This document shows, piece after piece, positions 5,454 through 17,069 of a DNA stretch of 43,491 bases. The stretch comes from Pseudoxanthomonas sp. (GTDB lineage Bacteria; Pseudomonadota; Gammaproteobacteria; Xanthomonadales; Xanthomonadaceae). The stretch lies in contig JAGHZW010000088.1 of the NCBI GenBank assembly GCA_017745195.1, positions 39,056 through 82,546 on the forward strand. The letters run 5' to 3'. Under the pieces are notes generated by a model. That model had not been told where the DNA came from. It made no database searches and was given only the letters and a program-made list of their open reading frames with translations. A program made the position numbers and the translations under genes. How positions within the stretch are numbered: position 1 is the first letter of the stretch; every line of letters starts with the position of its first letter.

Positions 5454-5893
5454 ACAGCCCACTCCGGCGCGTCAGCCGCGCGCGGCAACAACGTCATGGC
5501 GCGAAAGCCCGGAGGATACCGGCCTGTCGCGGATCGATGCAGGTCTTTCCGTGCTCCGATCGCGCGGTGTCCCGCACCGGCGTCGATCCCTCCGGCGATC
5601 CGCGTTCCGGAAGGTGCGGCCGGGGCCATGGGAATGATGTTGCGGGCATCGCGCGTGTCCGAAGTGCACGACCTCCACGTTGCGCCCTGCAACCGGGCGC
5701 TCCTGCGTGATCCAGGAAACGGACGTTGTCGTCGCGTTGCTCGCCACAACGCGCCAGTTCCGTGATGGCACGCCTAATTTATGTACCGGTCAGTTTGATA
5801 TTCAGGCTGGATTGGGGCTTGCCCCGAATAATTGCGTGCACCGACCGGGGTAATGGTCGGAAAAACATAAACGACATAGAGGTCGATAGAACA
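5454..5893. other. intergenic/leader region between AraC gene and ax21
   Basis: About 440 nt without a convincing gene. The left 300 nt are GC-rich, with only short random frames. From about 5770 onward the base composition becomes AT-richer (TTTGATA near 5803, AATAATT near 5827, AAAAACATAAACGACATA near 5860), as expected of a promoter and leader for the plus-strand gene. Two small dyads lie there: GGGGC/GCCCC at 5814-5825 and CCGACC/GGTCGG at 5841-5860. No exact -35/-10 pair can be assigned with confidence. Confidence 0.5.
5841..5860 (+). promoter_or_regulatory. stem-loop in the ax21 leader
   Basis: CCGACC (5841-5846) and GGTCGG (5855-5860) form a 6-bp stem with an 8-nt loop, about 33 nt before the start codon. 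It could be an operator dyad or a 5' UTR hairpin affecting mRNA stability. The position is seen directly; the role is inferred. Confidence 0.4.
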
Positions 5894-6448
5894 ATGAAGA
5901 AGTCCCTGCTTGCCCTGACCCTGCTGGTTGCCGCCCCGTTCGCCGCTTCGGCCGCCGAGGGCGTGTCCTACAACTACGTCGAGGGCGGTTACGCCGCGAC
6001 CAACACCGACGGCGCCGACGCCGACGGCTGGGGCCTGAACGGCTCCGTCGCCATCGCCCCGAACTTCCACCTGTTCGGTGGCTACAGCAACCAGGAGATC
6101 GACGACACCTCGATCGACTTCGACCAGTGGCGCGTCGGCGTGGGCTACAACCGCGAGATCGCCCCGGCGGCCGACCTGGTCACCCGCGTGGCGTACGAGA
6201 AGTTCGACGCCGGCCGTGGCTTCGACTACGACGGCTGGAGCGCCGAGGTCGGCGTGCGCGGCGCGCTGCACCCGAACTTCGAAGGCTACGTGATGGCCGG
6301 CTACGAAGACGGCGACAACTACGACGGCGAGTTCTACGGTCGCGTCGGCGCCCAGGCCAAGTTCAACCAGAACTGGGGCGTGACCGGTGACGTGAAGTTC
6401 ATCGACGGCGACACCCAGTGGTTCGTCGGCCCGCGCTTCAGCTGGTAA
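5894..6448 (+). CDS. ax21: Ax21-family outer membrane beta-barrel protein
   Basis: 184 residues. A textbook signal peptide (MKKSLLALTLL...ASA, cleavage near residue 20) is followed by GVSYNYVEGGY, alternating amphipathic strands with many Asp/Gly/Tyr, and the C-terminal WFVGPRFSW ending in an aromatic residue, the hallmark of BAM-inserted barrels. From memory of the family, the pattern matches Xanthomonas/Stenotrophomonas Ax21 along its length (DADGW-LNGSVAI-PNFH, WRVGVGYNREIAP). Ax21 is a surface and outer-membrane-vesicle protein linked to quorum sensing; earlier claims that it triggers rice XA21 immunity were withdrawn. The ATG lies at the end of an AT-rich leader without a strong Shine-Dalgarno. 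It is monocistronic, bounded by two 3' hairpins. Confidence 0.9.
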   Translation: MKKSLLALTLLVAAPFAASAAEGVSYNYVEGGYAATNTDGADADGWGLNGSVAIAPNFHLFGGYSNQEIDDTSIDFDQWRVGVGYNREIAPAADLVTRVAYEKFDAGRGFDYDGWSAEVGVRGALHPNFEGYVMAGYEDGDNYDGEFYGRVGAQAKFNQNWGVTGDVKFIDGDTQWFVGPRFSW

Positions 6449-6789: not shown

Positions 6790-7785
6790 ATGACCCTGGT
6801 CCAGCTCCGCTACTTCATCACTATCGTCGATTCGGGGCTGAACATCACCGTGGCTGCCAAGAAGGTGCACGCCACGCAGTCAAGCCTGTCCAAACAGATA
6901 AAGCAGCTGGAGGACGAACTCGGATTCCTCCTGTTCACCCGCCGTGCGCGCAGCCTCACCGCGCTGACACCGGCGGCGACGCGCGTACTCGAACACGCGC
7001 GTCCTTTGCTGGCGCATGCCGGCAACATCCGTGCGCTCAGCCAGAACCTGAGGCGCGAAACCGAAGGCGAACTGCACATCGCCACGACCCACACGCAGGC
7101 GCGCCACGTGCTGCCGTCGATGCTGGCGCGGCTCAAGCGCAGCTATCCCAAGGTGGCCATGCACCTGGCGCCCGGTGGCGATGGTGAATCGCTGGCACGG
7201 CTGGCACGGGGCGAAGCCGACCTGGCCATCGTCAGCAGCAGCGGCGTGCCGCCGCAGGCCGATATCCGCCTGCCGCTGTTCCACTGGGAGCGGGTGGTGC
7301 TGGTTCCCGCCCGCCACCGCCTCACCCGGCTGGGCAGGCCATTGCAGCTGGAAGACCTGTCGCACTACCCGCTGGTCAGCTACGAATCCAGCCGCGAACG
7401 CACCTCCTCGCTGCAACGCGCCTTCGATGCGGCGGGCCTGACCCCGCAGATCGCGATGACCGCCCGCGATGCCGACCTCATTGCCACCTACGTACGCAAC
7501 GGTCTGGGCATCGGCGTGGTCGCGGAGATGGCGGTGGACGCAGTAGGTGGCGACGACCTGGTGGTCCTGCCGAGCGAGCACCTGCTGCCGACGTGCACGA
7601 CCTGGCTGCTGTTGCGCCGCGACCGCCTTCTGCGCGACCACACCGTGGACCTGATCGCGCAGATGCTGCCCGGTGCCGACGCGCGCAGCGTGCGCCGCGC
7701 GATCGAGGCCGCCAGCGACGAGGTGGCGCCGGTCGTGCCGCACTGGCGCGATCCGGACAACCCGTTCGTGCGACGGAACCGCTGA
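6790..7785 (+). CDS. cysB: CysB-family LysR-type transcriptional regulator
   Basis: 331 residues from ATG 6790. An upstream in-frame ATG at 6649 would add 47 low-complexity residues not expected in the family; no Shine-Dalgarno supports 6790, so the start rests on homology. The winged HTH spans 1-60. The effector domain holds ATTHTQAR with Thr100, Thr102 and Gln103, the CysB sulfate-contact positions, followed by HW.R, YPLV.Y, and AGLTP..A.T.RDADLI..YVRNGLGIGV. In enteric CysB these sense sulfate/thiosulfate versus O-acetylserine and control sulfur assimilation. Position 149 is Ser rather than Thr, and the place of Thr202 seems to hold Glu. It faces the envelope redox operon with 23 nt between stop codons. 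Confidence 0.82.
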   Translation: MTLVQLRYFITIVDSGLNITVAAKKVHATQSSLSKQIKQLEDELGFLLFTRRARSLTALTPAATRVLEHARPLLAHAGNIRALSQNLRRETEGELHIATTHTQARHVLPSMLARLKRSYPKVAMHLAPGGDGESLARLARGEADLAIVSSSGVPPQADIRLPLFHWERVVLVPARHRLTRLGRPLQLEDLSHYPLVSYESSRERTSSLQRAFDAAGLTPQIAMTARDADLIATYVRNGLGIGVVAEMAVDAVGGDDLVVLPSEHLLPTCTTWLLLRRDRLLRDHTVDLIAQMLPGADARSVRRAIEAASDEVAPVVPHWRDPDNPFVRRNR

Positions 7786-7808: not shown

Positions 7809-8414
7809 TCAGCGGCTCCCGGCGCGCGCGATGTCGGCGAGTACCTGGCCGACGTTGGCCTGCGGATCGACGTCCCGGTAGCGACGGGCCACGGTGCCGC
7901 CCGCATCGACCAGGAAGGTTTCGCGGCGTGCGTAGTCGCCGCGGCCTTCGCGCCAGGCGAGCACGCCGTAACGTCGCGCAACCTCCTTGCCTGCATCCGA
8001 CAGCAGCGGAAACGGCACGTGGTATCTGTCGGCGAACTCGGCCTGCGAGGCGACCTCGTCCAGGCTGACCCCGACCACCCGCGCCCCGGCCTTGCGCAGG
8101 GCGACGATGTCGTCGCGGAACGCGCACACTTGGTCGGTGCACCCGCTGGTGAACGCCTTCGGATAGAAGTACAGGACCAGCCAGCGTCCGCGGTAATCCT
8201 GCAGGCGATGGATCTTGCCGTGCTGGTCGGGCAACGCGAAGTCCGGCGCGGCGTCGCCGGCCTCGGGCCCTCCGTCCGGCGCGGGCGCGGATGCGGGTGC
8301 TGCGCCGCCCGGTTCGCGTCCGCCGGCCACCGGCGCAGCGGACACCACGGCCACCACACACAGCAGCAACGCCCCGGCGAACCGGCGCGCGGCCACCCGT
8401 TCGCGTGCCGTCAC
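7809..8414 (-). CDS. secreted Bcp/PrxQ-type peroxiredoxin
   Basis: 201 residues, GTG start. The first about 27 residues (RFAGALLLCVVAVVSAAP) form a probable signal peptide, followed by an Ala/Pro/Gly-rich linker to about residue 55 and an AhpC/TSA domain. The peroxidatic Cys92 lies in FTSGCTDQVCAFRD and the resolving Cys97 is five residues on, the atypical 2-Cys PrxQ/Bcp arrangement. The usual TPGCT Pro is replaced by Ser. Such enzymes reduce H2O2 and organic peroxides with thioredoxin-like donors; here the likely donors are the periplasmic TlpA/DsbD proteins of the same operon. The start overlaps the YceI stop as GTGA (8411-8414). It is the last gene of the minus-strand redox operon. Confidence 0.88.
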   Translation of the reverse strand: MTARERVAARRFAGALLLCVVAVVSAAPVAGGREPGGAAPASAPAPDGGPEAGDAAPDFALPDQHGKIHRLQDYRGRWLVLYFYPKAFTSGCTDQVCAFRDDIVALRKAGARVVGVSLDEVASQAEFADRYHVPFPLLSDAGKEVARRYGVLAWREGRGDYARRETFLVDAGGTVARRYRDVDPQANVGQVLADIARAGSR

Positions 8415-8992
8415 GCGCCCGCCTCGGCCAGCGCCACCAGCTCGATGCGGATCTCCAGCTCGTCACCGATGTTGGGCAGCTGCTGGACCAGCCCGAAGTC
8501 ACTGCGCTTGATCCGCGTGCTCGCTTGCACGCCCAGCGCCGGCACGTTCTTGGCCGGATGTACGCCGGCCTTGTTGACGACGGCATCGAGCACGACCGGC
8601 TTGGTCACGCCGCGCAGGGTCAGCTCGCCGTTGACGCGCAGGCGGCCATCGCCGGTGCGCTGCACGCCCGTGCTGACGAAGGTCGCTTCCGGGTGGCTGG
8701 CGGCATCCAGGTAGTCCTCGCGCTGCACACGCTGGTTGAGCTTGTCGACCTGCCCGTCGAAGCTGGACACGGGCAGCACCACCTTGACCGACGACGCATC
8801 CGGCCTGGCCGCGTCGTACACCACGTGGCCACTCGCCTGCAGCCGCGCCGACGGATGGGCGAAACCGAGGTAGTCCCAGCTCACCCGCACGTCGGTATGG
8901 CTGGAATCGATGGTGTAGTCCACCGGCGCGGCGCTGGCGGCGGCACTGGAGGCGAGCAGGATGGCGGTGGCGAGGATGTGACGCGGGTTCAT
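8411..8992 (-). CDS. periplasmic YceI-family lipocalin-like protein
   Basis: 193 residues. The signal peptide MNPRHILATAILLASSAAASA is followed by VDYTIDSSHTDVRVSWDYLGFAHPSA, the typical YceI opening. Further family motifs follow: FDG.VDKLNQRVQREDYLDA..HPEATF.ST, GELTLRGVTKPVVLD and RIKRSDFG. The fold is an antiparallel barrel that binds isoprenoid quinone-like or polyprenyl lipids. YceI genes often accompany cytochrome b561 or stress genes. The ATG at 8992 was chosen because it gives an intact signal peptide. It lies 40 nt downstream of a TlpA-like gene and is coupled to the peroxiredoxin gene by a 4-nt overlap. A lipid or quinone carrier role in the redox operon is only an inference. Confidence 0.92.
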   Translation of the reverse strand: MNPRHILATAILLASSAAASAAPVDYTIDSSHTDVRVSWDYLGFAHPSARLQASGHVVYDAARPDASSVKVVLPVSSFDGQVDKLNQRVQREDYLDAASHPEATFVSTGVQRTGDGRLRVNGELTLRGVTKPVVLDAVVNKAGVHPAKNVPALGVQASTRIKRSDFGLVQQLPNIGDELEIRIELVALAEAGA

Positions 8993-9032
8993 GCGGGATC
9001 TCCTGGTGGTGGTTTGGAAAATGAGACGGCAA

Positions 9033-9548
9033 TCAGCGATGCAGTGCGCCCTGCCAGGCGGCCAGTTCCGCGGCCGTGAGCGGGCCGGCCTTGCTGCGCA
9101 CCACGCGCCCCTGCGCGTCGAGCAGCACCGAGTACGGCAGCACGCCCTGGCGATTGCCGTAGCGGGCCGAGCTGCCGCTGTCGCCGTAGTCGACCGCCTC
9201 GAGCAGCACCGGATAACGCACCGGCCGACGCGACAGATAGGCCTGCACGCTGGCGGCTTCGTCCAGGGCGATGCCGACCACCTGGATCCCGCCGGCGCGC
9301 GATTGCGCATGGGCGAAGGCATCCAGGTCCGGCATTTCCTTGAGGCAGGGGCCGCACCAGGTCGCCCAGTAGTTGAGCAGCACTGGTTGCCCGCGCCACT
9401 GGCTCAGGCTGCGGGCCTTGCCTGACAGATCGGGCAGGCGCAGTTCGCCGGCGCCTGGAACGGGTTCGGCCGCCGCCGCCGCGACGACGGAAACGAGGAG
9501 CACTGCGGCGAATGCGCCGGCACGGAAAGCTCGGCGAAACAGGGTCAC
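9033..9548 (-). CDS. TlpA/ResA-like periplasmic thioredoxin
   Basis: 171 residues, GTG start overlapping the dsbD stop as GTGA (9545-9548). The signal peptide spans residues 1 to about 27. The thioredoxin fold has YWATWCGPCLKEMPDL, with the redox pair Cys65/Cys68, and a cis-Pro motif near VLPYSVLLD. TlpA/ResA/DsbE proteins use this fold to reduce specific periplasmic disulfides, for example in apocytochrome c or copper chaperones, and are re-reduced by DsbD/CcdA. Being directly downstream of dsbD and near a c-type cytochrome gene, it may act in heme-protein maturation or feed the peroxiredoxin; the sequence does not decide between these. Confidence 0.92.
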   Translation of the reverse strand: MTLFRRAFRAGAFAAVLLVSVVAAAAAEPVPGAGELRLPDLSGKARSLSQWRGQPVLLNYWATWCGPCLKEMPDLDAFAHAQSRAGGIQVVGIALDEAASVQAYLSRRPVRYPVLLEAVDYGDSGSSARYGNRQGVLPYSVLLDAQGRVVRSKAGPLTAAELAAWQGALHR

Positions 9549-11362
9549 GAGTTGTCTCCCTGCAGTGCGGCTTCGACCTGGGCCCGGGTGGGCATGCTGG
9601 GCAACACCACGCCCTGCGCCTGTCCCGGATGGAAGACCACGTACAGCGGCACGCCGACGGCACCGTGCTGTTCCAGGAATCGCGTGATCTGCGGATCCAT
9701 GCGCGTCCAGTCACCCTTTACGTAGACCGCGCCCCGCGCAGCAAGCGCTTCATGGAAAGCGTCGGTGGCAAACAGCCGGCGCTCGTTGGCCTTGCAGGTG
9801 ACGCACCAGTCGGCGGTCATGTTCACGAACACGGTGCGGTTCCCGCCACGCAGTTCCGCAAGCCGTTGCGGCGAGAACGCGACACTGCCGTCGATGGTGG
9901 CCTGGGCCGCATCCGCCGGTGCCGGCAGGCGATGGATCTGCCACAACGGCCACAAGGCCAGCAGCGACAGCGACAGTGCGAACGGCCGCCATTGCGGTCG
10001 GCGCGCGTAGCGCAGGCGTTCGCCCGCCCACAGCGAGAACGCCAGCAGGACCAGGCCGGTGAACAGCCAGGCCAGCGCATCGCTGCCCTGCTGGCGGCTC
10101 AGCAGCCAGGCCAGCCACGCCGCTGTCGCATACAGCGGGAACGCCAGCGCCTGCTTCAGGGTTTCCATCCACGGGCCAGGACGCGGCAAGCGCGACGACA
10201 GCGCCGGCACGAAACCCACCAGCAGGAACGGCAGCGCCAGCCCCAGACCCAGCGCGAGGAACAGCGACAGCGCCGCCCTCCCTGACAGCGCGAACGCCGC
10301 GGCCAGCGCCGCACCCATGAACGGCGCCGTGCATGGACTGGCAACGACCACCGCGAGCACGCCGGTGAAGAAGTCACCCGACAGGCCATCGCGCGAGGCC
10401 AGTCCCTGACCGACGCCGGCGAGACGGGTGCCGAAAAGCACGGCGCCGGACAACGCCAGGCCGAGGCCGAGCATGACGTAGGCCAGCAGCGCGACCACCA
10501 TCGGTTGCTGCAACTGGAAGCCCCACCCCAGCACGAGCCCTGCCTGCCGCGCCACCAGCGCGGCGCCCCCCAGTGCCGCAAAGCTGCCGAGAACTCCGGC
10601 CGCATACGCCAGCGCGCGCCGACGCGCCTGCGCTGGATCGAAGCCGGTGCCCGCCAGCGACAACACCTTCAATGACAGCACTGGCAGCACGCACGGCATC
10701 AGGTTGAGCAACAGCCCGCCGGCCAGCGCCAGCAGCAACAGGCCGGCCAGTCGTACTGCTCCTGGCCGGGTGCGCGCCGGATCGGTCAGCGCGGCCGGCT
10801 CGTTCGAGCCCGGCGCATTCGATCCCGGAGCATCCGCCTGGTCCACAACGGTCAGCGCCGCGGACGGCCGCTCCGGCTCGATGCGTCCATTGACGAATGC
10901 GAGGGTCGTCGCGTGCGGCGGATAGCAGACTAGGGGCTCCACCTCGTGGCAGCCCTGCACCACCACCCGCAAGCGGGTCGGCGAAGCCACGGCGCCAGCG
11001 TGCGCCGCGGTGAAGATCAGTCCGGCCTGCAGGTGATCGCGATAGACCTCCACGTCCCCGAAGTTCTCGTCCTGCTTGGATGCACCCGCCGGAAGTTCCA
11101 CCGCCTGCAGGACGCGATCACCTTCGACCACCTCGATCCGGATCCGCTCGCGGTACAGGTAGTAGGCATCGGCGATGCGCCACTCCAGCCGCACCCGGTC
11201 CGGCCCTTCGGCGCGTGCCGCCAGCTTGAACGCCTCCGCGACCGGCAACAGCCCTTCCTGCGCGACGGCCTGCGCCCGCGTCGGTGGCGATGCCAGCGCG
11301 ATGGAGATCAGCAGCACCAGCCACGCCGCACGCGCCACGCTTCGGCCGATACCGGCGCTCAT
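9545..11362 (-). CDS. dsbD: thiol:disulfide interchange protein DsbD
   Basis: 605 residues with all three parts of the family. The signal peptide (to about residue 30) precedes the alpha domain with its cysteine pair Cys138 and Cys146 (QGCHE...VCYPP). The eight-helix membrane core has the redox cysteines in MPCVLPV (Cys224) and SPCTAPFMG (Cys344). The C-terminal thioredoxin domain has DWCVTCK (Cys520/Cys523). It passes electrons from cytoplasmic thioredoxin to periplasmic partners. A Pro/Ser/Asn linker near 178-190 (ADAPGSNAPGSNEPA) separates alpha from the membrane part. The start overlaps the di-heme peroxidase stop as ATGA (11359-11362), so the operon is tightly coupled. Confidence 0.97.
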   Translation of the reverse strand: MSAGIGRSVARAAWLVLLISIALASPPTRAQAVAQEGLLPVAEAFKLAARAEGPDRVRLEWRIADAYYLYRERIRIEVVEGDRVLQAVELPAGASKQDENFGDVEVYRDHLQAGLIFTAAHAGAVASPTRLRVVVQGCHEVEPLVCYPPHATTLAFVNGRIEPERPSAALTVVDQADAPGSNAPGSNEPAALTDPARTRPGAVRLAGLLLLALAGGLLLNLMPCVLPVLSLKVLSLAGTGFDPAQARRRALAYAAGVLGSFAALGGAALVARQAGLVLGWGFQLQQPMVVALLAYVMLGLGLALSGAVLFGTRLAGVGQGLASRDGLSGDFFTGVLAVVVASPCTAPFMGAALAAAFALSGRAALSLFLALGLGLALPFLLVGFVPALSSRLPRPGPWMETLKQALAFPLYATAAWLAWLLSRQQGSDALAWLFTGLVLLAFSLWAGERLRYARRPQWRPFALSLSLLALWPLWQIHRLPAPADAAQATIDGSVAFSPQRLAELRGGNRTVFVNMTADWCVTCKANERRLFATDAFHEALAARGAVYVKGDWTRMDPQITRFLEQHGAVGVPLYVVFHPGQAQGVVLPSMPTRAQVEAALQGDNS

Positions 11363-12363
11363 CGCCGCACCGCCGTGTCGGCAGCAGCAGCGAAGCGGTC
11401 GTCGGTCAATGCCACCAGGAAACTTTCCAGGTCGTCCACTTCGGCCGCGCTCAGCTGCAGCGGCCCGGTGATCGACGCGTCGCGCCCGTGCGCGTCCGGC
11501 ACCACCTTGTCGGGGTTGTTGTAGTACTCGATCACCTGGCGCAGGGTCGCGAACATGCCGTTGTGCATGTACGGCGCGGTCACTGCCACGTTGCGCAGCG
11601 AAGGCACCTTGAACTGGCCATCGTCGGCCGGGTCTCCGGTGATCGCACCGCGGCCGCGATCACCAAGCGCGACCCGGTTGAACAGGCCGATGTTGCGGAA
11701 CCGGTCGGAGGTGAAGTCCTCGCCGGAATGGCACTCGGCGCACTTCCCCTTCCCGATGAAGACCAGCCGGCCACGCTTGGCCGACTCGTCGATCGCCGCG
11801 TCGTCGCCATGCGCGTAGCGGTCATAGGGCGAGTCTGTGGTATCGAGCGTCTTCTGGAAGGCCGCGAGAGCGCGTCCGAGCGTGCGTGCCGTCGCCGGTC
11901 CGGCGTAGGCAACGCGGAACGCTTCGGCATAGCCCGGATCGCTGTTGAGCCGGCGCAGCGCCTCGTCCAGCGGCAGGTCCATCTCCAGCGGATTCTCGAT
12001 CGGGAAGACAGCCTGGTCCTCGAGGGTTTCGGCACGCCCGTCCCAGAACATCGAGGTGCGGCCGGACGTGTTCATGACCGTGGGCGTATTGCGCGTGCCC
12101 AGGCGCCCGGAAACCCCGGGACTGACCGCGACCGTGTCGGCGAAGGCGTGCTCGGGCTTGTGGCAGGACGCGCAACTGACCGTGCGATCACCCGACAGCA
12201 GCGGATCGAAGAACAGGCGCCGCCCCAGTTCGACCCGCGCCTCGTGCGGATCGATGGGCGCAGGCACCGGTGCGGCCAGCGACGCGGACGACTGCCACGG
12301 CGACGACAGCAGCGCGGTGGCGGCGATCAGGATGGCCATCGGAATCGGGAAACGGGAGGACAC
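11359..12363 (-). CDS. di-heme cytochrome c peroxidase (CcpA/MauG family)
   Basis: 334 residues from the GTG at 12363, which has GGAG 5 nt upstream. A longer ATG frame from 12411 would run into the upstream gene. A signal peptide (MAILIAATALLSS...SLAAP) is followed by two c-type heme sites, C64ASCH68 and C208AECH212. Family motifs are GRRLFFDP, GTRNTPTVMN, MFWDGRAETLEDQA..P..NPLEM, KVPSLRNVAVTAPYMHNG and a YYN helix. These enzymes reduce H2O2 or, in MauG relatives, oxidise protein side chains. Met266 and Met270 lie in the region that supplies a distal ligand in related proteins, so the axial ligand class is unclear. It sits between two DsbD-type genes. Confidence 0.93.
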   Translation of the reverse strand: MSSRFPIPMAILIAATALLSSPWQSSASLAAPVPAPIDPHEARVELGRRLFFDPLLSGDRTVSCASCHKPEHAFADTVAVSPGVSGRLGTRNTPTVMNTSGRTSMFWDGRAETLEDQAVFPIENPLEMDLPLDEALRRLNSDPGYAEAFRVAYAGPATARTLGRALAAFQKTLDTTDSPYDRYAHGDDAAIDESAKRGRLVFIGKGKCAECHSGEDFTSDRFRNIGLFNRVALGDRGRGAITGDPADDGQFKVPSLRNVAVTAPYMHNGMFATLRQVIEYYNNPDKVVPDAHGRDASITGPLQLSAAEVDDLESFLVALTDDRFAAAADTAVRR

Positions 12364-12382
12364 GGCGGCTCCGGTGCGGCGT

Positions 12383-12868
12383 TCATTCCAGCGCGATCGC
12401 GAACGGCTCATGGAACAGCGTGCACAGGCCGCTGGCCTCGAAGCAGCTCTGCCCGTCGAGCACGCCCTTCACCTGGCGCGCGCCCGGCGCGACGCGCACG
12501 CGCTGGCGGAAGGTCGCGCTGCCGTCGAAATACGTGTAGCGGTACTCGCCGGCGAAATTGCTGCCGGTACGCGAACGGGCCCCGTCCGAGCGCACCGGCT
12601 GCAGCGCCTGTCCGCCACCCTGCACTGCCAACCGCGCCGGCCGTGGACCGAAGTCGCCGGGCTCGAAGTCCGATGCGTAGACGATCCAGCCTTCGTCCAC
12701 CCGCGCGCTGAGCACGAGCTCCACCTCGTCGTCCGCGCCGGCGACGCGTTCGACCCGTTCCTGCCAGTGCAGCGTGCCCGGCTCTTCCTGCGCCCGCAGT
12801 GGCGCGGCGGCCGGGACCGTTGCGAGCAGGCACAGGCTCCACGCGGCAGACACTCGTCGCCTCATCAT
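12383..12868 (-). CDS. orphan DsbD alpha-domain-like periplasmic protein
   Basis: 161 residues. The ATG at 12868 is preceded by a good GAGGAAAGG ribosome site; a longer frame from 12910 lacks one. The signal peptide MMRRRVSAAWSLCLLATVP...RA is followed by one immunoglobulin-like domain matching the N-terminal (alpha) domain of DsbD: GWIVYASDFEPGDFGPRPARL, Y.Y.YFDGSATF.QRV.V and the pair Cys142/Cys149 in GQSCFEASGLCTLFHEPF. No membrane or thioredoxin part follows. In DsbD this domain is the hub that hands electrons to periplasmic substrates, so a free copy beside a complete DsbD could be a mobile carrier. It lies 48 nt after the TlpA-like gene and 19 nt before the di-heme peroxidase. Confidence 0.85.
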   Translation of the reverse strand: MMRRRVSAAWSLCLLATVPAAAPLRAQEEPGTLHWQERVERVAGADDEVELVLSARVDEGWIVYASDFEPGDFGPRPARLAVQGGGQALQPVRSDGARSRTGSNFAGEYRYTYFDGSATFRQRVRVAPGARQVKGVLDGQSCFEASGLCTLFHEPFAIALE

Positions 12869-12916
12869 CCTTTCCTCGTCCAGGAGCGCGCCTCGTGCGC
12901 GGCGCGCCATGTCTGA

Positions 12917-14248
12917 TCAGCGGGCGATTGCCAGCTGCGCCTGCGCTGCCGGTTCCGCGGCGCCGGCCGTGCTCGCGTACGGATCGGGCTCGGCCAGCAG
13001 CTGGTCCAGCAGCGCGTTGAACCTGGCCACGTACTGCTCGTGGTATTCGCCGGTGACCGTGCCGGTATAGCCGGTGTAGATCTGGCGCACCTCGCCCTTG
13101 CGGTCGATGATGATCGTGGTCGGGAACGCCGCCATGTAGTTCAGGCCCTTGAGCTTCTCGGTGGCAACCTTCTTGTCGGCCAGCCCGCCGAACACGATGT
13201 CGTACCTGACGTCGAAGTACTGCTTGAACTTGCCCAGCACCTTCTGGAAGTACGCGAAGCTGTCTTCCTGCTCGAACGCCACCGCCACCGCCTCGACGCC
13301 GCGTTCGTGGTTCTGCTTGAACCAGGGCGCCAGGAAATAGGTCTGGTCGGTGCAGTTCGGGCACCAGGTGCCGATCACCTCGACGATCACGACCTTGCCC
13401 TTGTACTTGGGATCGGTCAGCGAGACCTGCCTGCCTTCCAGGTCGGGGAAGCTGAAGTCGATGGTCTTCTGGCCGTCCTTGAGGTAGGTCAGCTGGTACG
13501 GGTCGGGCAACTCGACGTTGGCGTCCTTGCGGCCCTCGAAGCGCACCACGTTGTAGATGCCGCTTCCGAAGGCGCCCTGGATGTTGCCGTCCTCGTCGAT
13601 CGTGCCCTTGATCAGGCGCGGGCTCGGGCCGCTGAAGTGCGACAGCCAGAAGCGGTTGCCCTGCACGGTCCCCTCCAGTTCGCGCGTGTCGCCGACCACC
13701 GTCATGAACACGCCGCTGAGATGGTTGCCGTCCTGCTTGAGCAGCGCGACCTGCTCGCGCTTGTCGGCGCGTGCGGATTTGTCCAGCTGCAGCACCGCCC
13801 ACTTGCCGTTGAGGTCGCCCTGCGGCGCCCGGTCCTTGCCCGGTTCGACGAAGCGCCAGTTCTTGCCGTACTCGGCGGTGAACGGGATATTGCGCGCGCC
13901 CTGCCGATGCGGCACCAGGTCGCGGTATTCACCGCGCAGGGTCTTGCCATCGACGACGGTGAACACCAACGCCGCGTCGTAGGTGTTCATCGGCACCGAC
14001 AGGGTATCGTCGGAAACACGCTCGACCACGAAGTTGTCGCGACGCGTGCCGTTCACCAGGGTGAACTTCGCGTCCTTCGCGTCCTTGCCCTTGACCTCGA
14101 AGTTGAACGGGATCGGATCGCCGTCGACGTTGAACTCGCCGCGCCAGACGCCTTCCTGCGGGAATTTCGCCGCGGCGTGCGCCGCCCCGGCCACCACGAT
14201 CGAAAGCACCACCGCGCCCAGGCGCAACAACGGCCTCGCACTATTCAT
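12917..14248 (-). CDS. periplasmic TlpA-like protein with large N-terminal domain
   Basis: 443 residues from the ATG at 14248, with GAGGTG just upstream. The signal peptide spans 1-27. Residues about 28-260 are beta-rich with no recognised domain; two similar stretches (GVWRGEFNVDGDPIPFNFEV and the DLNGKWAVLQL...LSGVFMT region) hint at a lipocalin-like or repeated barrel. Residues about 265-420 are a thioredoxin fold with GTWCPNCTDQ (Cys296/Cys299), a cis-Pro near AAFPTT, and an 'IIDRKGEV' strand as in TlpA/AhpC relatives. The tail is Ala-rich. The WCPNC motif resembles MauD-type proteins that assist maturation of periplasmic enzymes. It is the first of seven close-packed genes, with the TonB receptor 159 nt upstream. 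Confidence 0.85.
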   Translation of the reverse strand: MNSARPLLRLGAVVLSIVVAGAAHAAAKFPQEGVWRGEFNVDGDPIPFNFEVKGKDAKDAKFTLVNGTRRDNFVVERVSDDTLSVPMNTYDAALVFTVVDGKTLRGEYRDLVPHRQGARNIPFTAEYGKNWRFVEPGKDRAPQGDLNGKWAVLQLDKSARADKREQVALLKQDGNHLSGVFMTVVGDTRELEGTVQGNRFWLSHFSGPSPRLIKGTIDEDGNIQGAFGSGIYNVVRFEGRKDANVELPDPYQLTYLKDGQKTIDFSFPDLEGRQVSLTDPKYKGKVVIVEVIGTWCPNCTDQTYFLAPWFKQNHERGVEAVAVAFEQEDSFAYFQKVLGKFKQYFDVRYDIVFGGLADKKVATEKLKGLNYMAAFPTTIIIDRKGEVRQIYTGYTGTVTGEYHEQYVARFNALLDQLLAEPDPYASTAGAAEPAAQAQLAIAR

Positions 14249-14336
14249 CACGCACCTCGCTTGGATACAGGGAATGGATGCCACCGGGCAGGTGACTGTA
14301 GGGACCGCCGCGATGCCGGGTCCACGCCGCAGCGCG

Positions 14337-14350
14337 CGCCATGCATGGCG
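14337..14350. repeat. 14-bp palindrome upstream of the TlpA-like gene
   Basis: CGCCATGCATGGCG is a perfect palindrome located 88 nt before the start codon, in the 159-nt gap after the TonB receptor gene. It may be an operator or a 5' UTR hairpin. No promoter boxes could be assigned with confidence. Confidence 0.45.
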
Positions 14351-14407
14351 TTTGGTCATGAGCAGATCGCCGGGGAGACTGTGCAGGGCCGGCAGCGTGC
14401 GTCGCGG

Positions 14408-16960
14408 TCACCATTCGTAACCCACCGTCACCGACCAGAAACCGCCGGAAGCGTCGATCGGGCCGCCCGTGGCGTAGTAGTACTCCATGTTCGCCGGGAT
14501 CAGCGGGTCCGGATACTTGATGACCTTCTGGTCGAACACGTTGCTGCCCGACAGCGCCAGGCGCAGCCCGCTTTCGAAGCGGTAACTCGCTTCGATGTCG
14601 GCGAGCCAGGTATCGCCGATGCTGTAAGCGATCTCGGCCTGACCTGCATATGGACCGGTGGTCGGCACCGGGCTCGGCGTGCCCCAGCGCTCGATCGGCC
14701 CGTAATGGGTAACCCGCAGGCCCAGGTTGAAACCGTCCAGGCTCCAGTTGCCGCCGAGAATCTGCTTGCTGCTTGGCGCCTTGTACAGCAGGTCGTTCTG
14801 CGAGCCACGGCTGAACACCGGGATGCCCAGGTCGGCCAGCACGTCCGGCGTGTCGGCGATGTCGCGGATTTCGGCGCGGTTGTGGTGGGCGGCCAGCGAC
14901 CAGTGGATGCTGCCCCAGCTGCCGAGGTCGCTGTCGGTTTCCACCGTCAGCTCGACACCCTCGCTGCGCGTATCGGCGGCGTTGATGAAGTAGGTGATGC
15001 CGTCGTCGCGACCGAAACCGGCCGCCTCCACCAGCGCACCGGCGCCCGGATAGCTGGCCTCGCTGAACGTGGTCGACTGGGCGATGCGATCGTCGACGTC
15101 GATGCGGTACACGTCCAGGGCCACGTCCCAGCCCGTGAACGGCTGGAACACCAGGCCCACGCCGTAGTTGACCGAGGTCTCCGGTTCGAGCGGCTTGGCG
15201 CCCAGGGCGATCGCCTCGGGCGAATCCACCTTGAGCGTGTGCGTGGTCGAGTAGTTGCCATTGACCGTGCGCCGGTGCGCCTGCGCGGCCAGCGACGGCG
15301 CCTGGAAGCCGGTACTCGCGGTGGCGCGGACCGCGAAGCGCTCGTTGAAGTCGTAACGCGTGGTCAGGCGTCCGGTGACTTCGCTGCCGAAGTCGGAGTA
15401 GTCCTCGTGACGCGCGGCCAGGTCGACCAGCCATTGCTCGGTCGGATTGATCGACACGCCGGCGTAGAGCGAGGTGCTGTGCCGGTCCTCGTCCACTTCC
15501 TCGCTGGGCTTGAAGCCAGGCAGTGCCTGCGCGCCACCGAGGCCACGTCCCAGCACCTTGCCGGCATTCGGGCCGTCCAGTACCCGCTGGCCGCCGTGCG
15601 AGTACGACTGCACGTCGCCGGCGCCAACCTGGTAGTTCTCGCGCCGGTGTTCGGCGCCCAGCGACAGCTGCAGCGGCTCGGCGAGCCAGCCCACGTCGAA
15701 GCCGCGGCGCAGGTCGAAGTTGGTGGTCAGCGCCGAGTACTGCAGCCGGCCGATGTAGAAGCTGGTCTGGCTGTCCAGGCCATAGGTCGGGTTGAGCGAG
15801 TTGTCCAGATCGATGTCGATCCGGTCGAAGCCGTAGTTGCCCGACAGGTCCCACGACCAGCCCGACGCGGTCTGACCCCTGATCCCCGCGGTGGTGCCGA
15901 AGTCGTCCTCGTCCAGCTGTTCCACCGGCGCATAGCCGTCCGGGAAGATCGCGCGCACCACTTCATCGCGTGCCGGATGGCGGAAGTTCTGCGGCGCGTG
16001 GGCGTCGCGCTGCGAGTACAGCGCGAGCACGTACAGGTCGGTGTATTCGGACAACGGCAGGCCGAAGTCGATGCCGGCCGACTTCTGCTCGTAGGCGCGG
16101 ATGCCGCGGTTCTTCCACGCGTAGTCGTCGCGCGTGGCTTCCTTCGGGTTGGGCGTGGCGCCGGCGGGCAGCCGCGGACTGCTCGCCAGGTTGCCCGCCG
16201 GCAGGATCTCGTTGCCATTGGCGTCGAGCGGAAAGTAGTAGAGGAAGCTTTCGCGCGACGGTCCGGTACGGTTGGTCGCATCCTGGTCGTTCAGCTGCGC
16301 CGACAGCCGCAGGTGGCCGCCGCCGGCCACCAGCACGCCGGTGCTGGCCTGGAGCAGGCGGTTGCGTCCGTCGCCCTCGAAGTAGCGACCGTCGCGATAG
16401 GACACCGATCCGCCTTCCGGGTCGGTGTCGGTAATGATGTTGATCACGCCGGCAATTGCGTCGGAGCCGTAGATCGCCGAGGCGCCATCGCGCAACACCT
16501 CGATGCGCTTGATCACCGTGTTCGGGATCAACCCGAGGTCCACCGGTGCGGCAGCGCCGAAGCCGCCGGCGCCCAGCAGCGCGGTGCTGTGCCAGCGCTT
16601 GCCGTTGACCAGGACCAGGGTGTGGCTGGTGTTGAGGCCACGCAGCTGCCCGGAGCGGACCATGCTGTTGAGGTCGCCGGTCTCCAGTGGCAGGTTGAAC
16701 GACGGCAGGGTGGTGTTGAGCACATCGAGCAGGTTGGTGCGGTTGGCGCGCTCGATGTCTTCCGCCGACAGCACGTCGATGGGTGCCGGGCTGCTCTGCA
16801 CCGTGCGCGCGACGCCGCGGGTTCCGGTGACGATGACCGCGTCGATTTCGGTAGGTGTCGGTGCGTCTTCGGCGTGCGCATCGGCCAGCGCCGCGGCGAT
16901 CACCAGGCAAAGCATCAGCCGCCGCGGCGCACGTCGCGCCACGCTGGAGCTCGTCAGCAT
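14408..16960 (-). CDS. TonB-dependent outer membrane receptor
   Basis: 850 residues from the ATG at 16960, with AGGA 7 nt upstream. The signal peptide ends near residue 30. A TonB-box-like EIDAVIVTGTRG lies near 38-49. The plug domain (to about 170) has VLSAEDIERAN, SFNLPLE and the conserved RDGASAIYGSDAIAGVINI. A 22-strand barrel follows, with TonB-receptor signatures FQAPSLAAQ and a C-terminal region ending SVTVGYEW. Substrate class is not determined; the long plug and SDAIAGVINI type are common in Xanthomonadaceae receptors for siderophores, vitamin B12 or glycans. It lies directly upstream of the periplasmic redox genes on the same strand and has a striking inverted repeat 86 nt before its start. 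Confidence 0.95.
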   Translation of the reverse strand: MLTSSSVARRAPRRLMLCLVIAAALADAHAEDAPTPTEIDAVIVTGTRGVARTVQSSPAPIDVLSAEDIERANRTNLLDVLNTTLPSFNLPLETGDLNSMVRSGQLRGLNTSHTLVLVNGKRWHSTALLGAGGFGAAAPVDLGLIPNTVIKRIEVLRDGASAIYGSDAIAGVINIITDTDPEGGSVSYRDGRYFEGDGRNRLLQASTGVLVAGGGHLRLSAQLNDQDATNRTGPSRESFLYYFPLDANGNEILPAGNLASSPRLPAGATPNPKEATRDDYAWKNRGIRAYEQKSAGIDFGLPLSEYTDLYVLALYSQRDAHAPQNFRHPARDEVVRAIFPDGYAPVEQLDEDDFGTTAGIRGQTASGWSWDLSGNYGFDRIDIDLDNSLNPTYGLDSQTSFYIGRLQYSALTTNFDLRRGFDVGWLAEPLQLSLGAEHRRENYQVGAGDVQSYSHGGQRVLDGPNAGKVLGRGLGGAQALPGFKPSEEVDEDRHSTSLYAGVSINPTEQWLVDLAARHEDYSDFGSEVTGRLTTRYDFNERFAVRATASTGFQAPSLAAQAHRRTVNGNYSTTHTLKVDSPEAIALGAKPLEPETSVNYGVGLVFQPFTGWDVALDVYRIDVDDRIAQSTTFSEASYPGAGALVEAAGFGRDDGITYFINAADTRSEGVELTVETDSDLGSWGSIHWSLAAHHNRAEIRDIADTPDVLADLGIPVFSRGSQNDLLYKAPSSKQILGGNWSLDGFNLGLRVTHYGPIERWGTPSPVPTTGPYAGQAEIAYSIGDTWLADIEASYRFESGLRLALSGSNVFDQKVIKYPDPLIPANMEYYYATGGPIDASGGFWSVTVGYEW

Positions 16961-17045: not shown

Positions 17046-17069
17046 ATTCATCCGTCCATGCGGATGAAT
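17046..17069. promoter_or_regulatory. 9-bp inverted repeat, probable operator of the TonB receptor gene
   Basis: ATTCATCCG (17046-17054) and CGGATGAAT (17061-17069) are perfect inverted repeats separated by 6 nt, 86 nt upstream of the TonB receptor start and well after gpsA. Half-sites about 15 bp centre to centre suit a dimeric regulator. The motif does not match Fur, Zur or LexA consensus as I know them. A CysB-type, TetR-type or other regulator cannot be chosen from sequence. Confidence 0.6.

Follow-up and report, generated by a model that had tools for sequence, protein, structure and literature searches.

A mobile envelope redox cassette with a MauG-like di-heme enzyme in Lysobacteraceae and Bacteroidota

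MauG-type di-heme enzymes perform an unusual long-range oxidation of proteins, and few of their natural partners are known. Canonical bacterial cytochrome c peroxidases (CCPs) carry an axial Met on the high-potential heme, at the position occupied by Tyr in the enzyme described here. ResA and CcmG reduce apocytochrome c. A passage of PMC3621798 places MbnT receptors, in many cases, next to MbnP/MbnH pairs in methanobactin operons. We analysed a stretch of 43,491 nucleotides from Pseudoxanthomonas sp. (contig JAGHZW010000088.1; hereafter the window), in which eight genes of an envelope redox locus all lie on the minus strand at 7809-16960. They encode a TonB-dependent receptor (TBDR), a protein that we call TlpN (two beta segments followed by a thioredoxin domain), an orphan DsbD N-terminal (alpha) domain (DsbD-alpha), a MauG/MbnH-type di-heme enzyme, a full-length DsbD, a TlpA-type thioredoxin, a YceI-family protein and a peroxiredoxin (Prx). 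The initial annotation had named these genes, strand and families, and open reading frames (ORFs) and a Pfam scan of the window bear it out, the DsbD-alpha match lying under the cut-off.

The locus is a mobile envelope redox cassette. Its core, consisting of TlpN, a YceI-like protein, a MauG-like enzyme, a TBDR and, in part of the loci, DsbD-alpha, is kept together in two phyla. We tentatively favour, somewhat short of even confidence, a periplasmic module linked to TonB uptake: its di-heme enzyme would oxidise an imported ligand or a partner with H2O2 while TlpN and DsbD supply electrons. Among the matches listed, judged from titles and abstract openings, the open-access literature that we searched contains no description of the cassette, in agreement with the initial annotation, which had thought it possibly undescribed.

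A core kept together in two phyla

Our census comprises the best 79 of 508 loci from one TlpN-alignment scan of the species-genome collection, of which 11 belong to Pseudoxanthomonas and Stenotrophomonas and 68 to Bacteroidota (including Mucilaginibacter, Pedobacter, Dyadobacter, Chitinophaga, Siphonobacter and Spirosoma). Since the sample was picked by TlpN, the frequency of cassette-type MauG without TlpN is not readable from it. Between the phyla, identity is 54-62% for TlpN and 50-61% for the MauG-like enzyme. A MauG-like gene is present no more than 8 kb from TlpN in 76 loci (all except L080, L134 and L143), in 75 of them downstream and in the same orientation. Within this distance YceI occurs in 70, the Bacteroidota proteins being only distantly similar to that of the window, a DUF4397 lipoprotein in 63 and DsbD-alpha in 44. 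TlpN, MauG, TBDR and YceI are found jointly in 65 of the 79.

The link to TonB uptake that the initial annotation suggested is supported by the receptor itself. When the count is restricted to TBDRs with more than 400 aligned residues and at least 45% identity to the window TBDR or to two Bacteroidota cassette TBDRs, 71 of the 79 loci hold a receptor of the cassette kind no further than 8 kb from TlpN; any TBDR is present in 74. The strict count misses L070 and L072, whose intact sites hold none, L134 and L143, which have none of the cassette kind, and L074, L107, L109 and L115, where the sequence ends before or inside the TBDR.

Gene order varies between lineages. Stenotrophomonas loci L073 and L075-L079 read TlpN-YceI-DsbDalpha-MauG-TlpA-TBDR, and L074 stops at the contig end after MauG. 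The usual order in Mucilaginibacter and Pedobacter is TlpN-TlpN-YceI-MauG-TBDR-DUF4397, with an extra DsbD-alpha gene upstream in many Mucilaginibacter loci; Chitinophaga has TlpN-YceI-MauG-TBDR-DUF4397 and no DsbD-alpha. The Dyadobacter TlpN-DsbDalpha-MauG group is oriented away from a TBDR-DUF4397 pair. DsbD-alpha adjoins MauG in Dyadobacter, Siphonobacter (L145), Flectobacillus, Pseudarcicella and Spirosoma. Gene labels of the high-GC loci L070-L080 are poor in the maps, where long ORFs were picked, and their counts come from the 8-kb census.

A conserved order of eight genes, as the initial annotation proposed, survives only in part. The core is kept in Bacteroidota and Lysobacteraceae and is thus conserved far beyond close relatives, so the objection that the arrangement might be confined to these does not apply. 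The exact order was found in the window and in Pseudoxanthomonas broegbernensis only, and the eight genes are not a conserved unit: within 8 kb of TlpN, DsbD is present in 3 of 79 loci and Prx in 2, all Pseudoxanthomonas, and the TBDR is absent from three of five genus cassettes. DsbD and Prx are local additions to the cassette in Pseudoxanthomonas. TlpA is found in 9 of 79 loci, which are 9 of the 11 Lysobacteraceae loci. We therefore rejected the description as a local eight-gene operon, the conserved part being the core.

These counts also bear on the idea of a defence operon against peroxide or oxidative stress, unlinked to uptake, which we consider very improbable. It would account for the Prx of the window and for a superoxide dismutase (SOD) gene, whose product looks exported, within 8 kb of TlpN in 23 loci. 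However, SOD is confined to Bacteroidota, Prx is as rare as stated, the cassette-kind TBDR is present almost throughout, and the regulator described below fits CysB-type models far better than OxyR. Peroxide defence, one of the two functions offered by the initial annotation, is not favoured because most loci have no thiol peroxidase and a Tyr stands at the MauG axial-ligand position.

A membrane protein of 450 aa with many invariant residues lies within 8 kb of TlpN in 20 of 79 loci (L081 19050-20402 and 19 others). It follows the SOD gene in Mucilaginibacter and stands beside TlpN in Dyadobacter and Spirosoma. Three members scanned gave no Pfam match, and the AlphaFold2 (AF2) model has a mean pLDDT of 56.9.

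The di-heme enzyme and its thiol partners

We built a maximum-likelihood tree of 52 rows, comprising 22 cassette enzymes, that of family genome G245, a Hymenobacter plasmid enzyme, 24 other xanthomonad CCP_MauG proteins, two MauGs from mau operons and two enzymes from Deinococcus, of which one adjoins MbnP. The cassette enzymes form one clade on a 99/95 branch, with the G245 and Hymenobacter rows on the cassette side and the 24 xanthomonad, two mau-operon and two Deinococcus proteins outside. Inside the clade the two phyla are separate groups (97/84 and 97/93). Several branches of the tree are long, and its deeper placements are unsure. The Hymenobacter volaticus plasmid (L149 11552-12894) carries its cassette-type MauG (55.6% identity) downstream of a short hypothetical gene and has no TlpN match within the 24.8 kb examined. 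On a Deinococcus radiodurans plasmid (L153 5031-8544), MbnP and the MauG-like enzyme adjoin CopC and CopD genes.

An alignment shows that both CXXCH motifs, Y297, W123, Q133, P137 and E143 (counted from the ATG at 12411, not the GTG at 12363) are common to the enzyme and to Paracoccus and Methylobacterium MauG. Y297, W123 and E143 fall in columns that we take to be those of Paracoccus MauG Tyr294, Trp93 and Glu113, respectively. The five residues and both CXXCH motifs are present in 93% or more of 69 rows, and Tyr occupies the Y297 column in every row of two alignments, neither of which includes a canonical Met-bearing peroxidase. The analogy to mau clusters drawn in the initial annotation thus holds at residue level, in the Tyr and Trp columns. 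The portion of PMC6405878 consulted discusses Trp93 and cites titles that mention Tyr294 and Glu113.

Two features were dropped as evidence. Against NCBIfam TIGR03791 (MauG), the window enzyme scores 220 bits with a cut-off of 444, and against TIGR04039 (MbnH) 230 bits with a cut-off of 363; the Paracoccus mau-operon MauG itself reaches only 108 against the former and thus also fails, and the MbnP-adjacent Deinococcus enzyme, at 264 against the latter, is also below. The enzyme lacks a counterpart of MauG Trp199, whose identity and role we assume here, and so does Methylobacterium mau-operon MauG in the alignment.

MauA (PF02975) was found in none of four cassette genomes, including that of the window (G000, 87.6% complete), while the control in the Methylobacterium mau plasmid was positive; the initial annotation had reported this substrate as missing from the locus. 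The Pfam scan found neither MauA nor MauB among the window cassette genes, and no MauB search of the genomes was made. MbnP (PF20243) is absent from the cassette proteins scanned and was not found in the four genomes, where the control set for the genome search was also negative; hmmscan finds the Deinococcus MbnP.

These results are relevant to a function like that of MbnH and MbnP, in which a Trp of one cassette protein (TlpN, the receptor or YceI) would be converted by the di-heme enzyme into a cross-linked residue or one that binds metal, with a metal complex as the cargo of the receptor. The MbnH model is the best or second-best NCBIfam match of the enzyme, TlpN Trp35 and Trp150 are invariant, the Deinococcus pair adjoins CopC/CopD, and the neighbourhood of MbnT receptors and MbnP/MbnH pairs (PMC3621798, in the passage mentioned above) would be comparable. 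We nevertheless regard this function as unlikely, given the missing MbnP (with the limit of its control), the position of the cassette clade apart from the two Deinococcus enzymes and the lack of any recurrent copper gene recognised among recurrent families that are only partly annotated. Bacteroidota YceI proteins of the cassette type generally carry this Trp. An alignment shows the YceI Trp shifted by two positions between the phyla, which speaks against this function, and we dropped a shared YceI Trp as evidence for a MauG target.

The TlpN AF2 model (mean pLDDT 84.6, pTM 0.79) has two runs of eight strands, residues 33-127 and 148-241, with a GxW motif at the start of each. G33, W35, G148, W150 and the cysteines C296 and C299 are invariant in 35 rows. 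Residues 252-421 match ResA/CcmG (Foldseek/VIA). The fold search with the whole model effectively covered this thioredoxin part and gave no lipocalin-type chains among the matches listed, and no Pfam family matched the N-terminal part. The lipocalin/calycin fold is an eight-strand barrel that opens with GxW, and we infer from the model that the beta segments may be two ligand-holding barrels.

In a cysteine census of the cassette families from the 79 loci, whose rows are mostly from Bacteroidota, Cys fills at least half of the rows at the active-site pairs of TlpN and DsbD-alpha and at the four heme cysteines of MauG; one column in DUF4397, at a lipobox-like position, and one in the membrane protein of 450 aa also reach this level. 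The DsbD-alpha pair (Cys142/Cys149 in the window) is retained in every one of the 15 orphan domains compared. The YceI protein of the window contains no cysteine, and its TBDR a single one, Cys18, in the signal-peptide region. According to this census, the heme cysteines are the only conserved cassette Cys pairs open to the relay as clients, unless the client is an imported ligand or another protein; the Pseudoxanthomonas Prx has a Cys pair of its own.

The thiol proteins TlpN, DsbD-alpha and DsbD might be no more than a dedicated maturation service, which prepares the CXXCH cysteines of a periplasmic di-heme H2O2 peroxidase for heme attachment by reducing them, with the TBDR and YceI loosely linked. 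The ResA/CcmG match of the TlpN thioredoxin domain and the status of the heme cysteines as the only conserved Cys pairs outside the relay proteins in the families counted argue for such a service, as does a CXXCH-bearing ORF between TBDR and TlpN in three distant loci. However, the TBDR is nearly as constant as MauG (71 versus 76 of 79), the conserved beta N-terminus would be superfluous for a simple maturation factor, and the enzyme has a Tyr column where canonical CCPs have the axial Met. TlpN also occurs with a TBDR and a dipeptidase and no cytochrome found, in L080 and L062, and on balance we find the service rather doubtful.

Both of the latter loci are second copies in cassette genomes. 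G188 (Pseudoxanthomonas sp. J31; L080 10001-15337) and G087 (L062 5096-10480) each hold a second TlpN (66% and 69% identity, respectively), accompanied by a TBDR from the same family as that of the window (49-50%). Between TlpN and TBDR stands an M19 dipeptidase in L080 and a dipeptidase-like ORF in L062, where the likeness was judged by eye, M19 having been tested for L080 only; no cytochrome-like CXXCH gene was found in either. TlpN thus accompanies a receptor even without MauG, and the dipeptidases are a hint of a peptide or thiol ligand. The genomes of the three TBDR-less genus cassettes hold an extra TlpN-TBDR pair elsewhere, and no second TlpN was seen in the two genus genomes with a cassette TBDR. 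Distant TlpN relatives (27-29% identity) in L065, L066 and L068 also have a TBDR nearby, and the CXXCH-bearing ORFs between the two lie at L065 11127-11864, L066 7121-7981 and L068 6667-7116.

The inserted block in Pseudoxanthomonas

The features of the window are collected in the table. The gaps are 159 nt between TBDR and TlpN, 48 nt between TlpN and DsbD-alpha and 40 nt between TlpA and YceI, and the MauG/DsbD, DsbD/TlpA and YceI/Prx junctions overlap by 4 nt each. DsbD-alpha and MauG are 19 nt apart if the latter starts at GTG 12363 and overlap by 29 nt if it starts at ATG 12411; the initial spacing of at most 48 nt between the last seven genes, with three 4-nt overlaps, holds for the GTG start.

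Table. Genes and candidate control elements of the locus, in window coordinates
Feature	Position	Strand	Match or basis
TBDR, 850 aa	14408..16960	-	PF00593, PF07715
TlpN: two beta segments and thioredoxin domain (CPNC)	12917..14248	-	AhpC-TSA/Redoxin
Orphan DsbD N-terminal (alpha) domain, Cys142/Cys149	12383..12868	-	PF11412, E 5e-4, under Pfam cut-off
MauG/MbnH-type di-heme c enzyme, two CXXCH	11359..12363	-	PF03150 CCP_MauG, E 4e-57
Full-length DsbD, alpha-TM-gamma, six Cys	9545..11362	-	Pfam
TlpA/ResA-type thioredoxin, Cys65, Cys68	9033..9548	-	Pfam
YceI-family exported protein, no Cys	8411..8992	-	PF04264
PrxQ/BCP-type peroxiredoxin, signal-peptide-like N-terminus, Cys92, Cys97	7809..8414	-	Pfam/NCBIfam/PDB matches
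CysB-like LysR regulator, convergent, outside the eight-gene range	6790..7785	+	NF009325/NF009327 matches below cut-off
Perfect inverted repeat ATTCATCCG-N6-CGGATGAAT, likely operator, 5' of TBDR	17046..17069		see control regions in the text
12-bp palindrome GCCATGCATGGC, then GTGGAC-N19-TACAGT; likely TlpN-operon operator/promoter	14338..14349		read by eye; contig 53393-53404

The di-heme protein has some match at E 1e-20 in 77 of 297 family genomes. Six of these (G000, G060, G188, G087, G282 and G245) have the cassette type of MauG at 61-100% identity, the remaining matches reaching at most 46%, and exactly the same six, with no others of the 297, have TlpN at 66% identity or more. The order from TlpN to YceI is identical in all five genus cassettes. 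Prx is missing in G188, and the TBDR is missing from the cassettes of G188, G087 and G282. The last of these, Pseudoxanthomonas sp. NC8 (L035 and L070; 57% completeness), has heavily frame-shifted cassette and flanking genes, probably owing to assembly error.

The gpsA gene is present in 17 of 17 genus genomes, and the cassette with the LysR gene lies between it and an outer membrane protein gene (5891-6448 in the window). Six of the 12 cassette-less genomes were examined; in all six the two flanking genes directly adjoin, and the cassette LysR is absent from each of these empty sites. LysR orthologs at 79-100% identity occur in five of the 17 genomes, exactly those with a cassette; ten of the 12 others have a 51-53% paralog alone, and two have no match at threshold. 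Since the orthologs track the cassette and the empty sites lack both, LysR and cassette behave as one inserted block, and the eight-gene range given initially has to be extended by the convergent LysR gene (6790-7785). The window genome also carries a 53% paralog of this LysR elsewhere. The regulator scores far better with CysB-type NCBIfam models, under their cut-offs, than with OxyR; its nearness to the former hints at a possible sulfur control of the cassette.

Promoter and operator motifs were read by eye from upstream regions. GTGGAC-N19-TACA(G/T)T precedes TlpN in five of five genus loci, and the exact 12-bp palindrome in three of them; this 12-mer occurs at 2, 3, 1 and 1 places in four genomes, with the cassette operon among them in three of the four. 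The inverted repeat upstream of the TBDR is common to the window and P. broegbernensis, and it matches once in the window and never in 100 shuffles. With up to three mismatches, it was found at the TBDR site alone in two cassette-TBDR genomes and nowhere in two genomes without a cassette TBDR. The separate motifs 5' of TlpN and TBDR suggest two separately controlled units, with the TBDR probably transcribed on its own. A single operon, as first assumed, probably does not include the TBDR, whose own promoter-like motifs look like an independent promoter, and TlpN too is preceded by motifs.

Proposed function and relation to described systems

The TonB-linked module that we favour would work as follows. 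The receptor would carry a ligand into the periplasm, where the TlpN beta segments and YceI would hold it or a partner protein, and the di-heme enzyme with H2O2 would oxidise either by MauG-type long-range chemistry. Electrons would come from the TlpN thioredoxin domain and DsbD-alpha, in the window fed from the cytoplasm by DsbD with the help of TlpA. This supply would keep the two CXXCH motifs reduced for heme attachment, reduce the imported ligand, or both. The Pseudoxanthomonas Prx and the exported-looking SOD of 23 Bacteroidota loci would fit local handling of peroxide and superoxide.

Several points weigh against this module. No cassette protein is an obvious MauG target. The Tyr and Trp ligand positions are predicted from the alignment, and a CCP-type peroxidase activity is possible. 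Profile comparison of the TlpN segments with each other (22% probability) and with YceI is weak. Of the 79 loci, 35 yielded no DsbD-alpha and 3 no MauG, and the DsbD-alpha of Mucilaginibacter shares only about 20% identity with that of the window, so that its orthology is unsure. The TBDR is missing from three Pseudoxanthomonas cassettes (NC8, J31 and G087), and the cytochrome-free pairs in L080 and L062 mean that TlpN is not tied to MauG alone.

More boldly, the cassette could represent a new kind of TonB-dependent uptake, in which a MauG-type enzyme and a dedicated thioredoxin whose N-terminus holds the ligand would process the latter in the periplasm, by oxidation as well as reduction, or would tailor a cassette protein that captures it, and which has spread between Bacteroidota and Lysobacteraceae; we consider this bolder proposal possible, at a lower confidence than the module itself. 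In both phyla the cassette connects TonB receptors with MauG-type chemistry and with a thiol relay, and its fixed partners provide a short, testable partner list for an uncharacterised MauG-like clade.

Like the mau cluster (MauG, MauD and MauE), the cassette combines a di-heme enzyme that has Tyr and Trp in the MauG columns with a TlpA-like protein and a partner in the membrane. In contrast to that cluster, it lacks genes for MauA (not found in four genomes either), MauB, amicyanin and MauE, has DsbD in place of MauE, adds the TBDR, YceI and the orphan DsbD-alpha, and occupies a separate branch of the tree. Canonical CCPs belong to the same CCP_MauG family and differ in having the axial Met instead of the Tyr column. 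BthA is a further family member, in which Ser replaces the bridging Trp according to the part of PMC6405878 consulted, whereas the cassette enzyme retains Trp. MbnH-MbnP pairs likewise combine a MauG-like enzyme with a neighbouring TonB receptor (PMC3621798, same passage), and the profile scores are comparable. Unlike these pairs, the cassette has a thiol relay and YceI and no MbnP, and its clade excludes the Deinococcus enzymes. Finally, the ResA-like domain of TlpN, TlpA and DsbD recall the apocytochrome-reduction pathway of ResA, CcmG and DsbD, from which the cassette is set apart by the two-part beta N-terminus of TlpN, the separate DsbD-alpha and the frequent link to one kind of TBDR.

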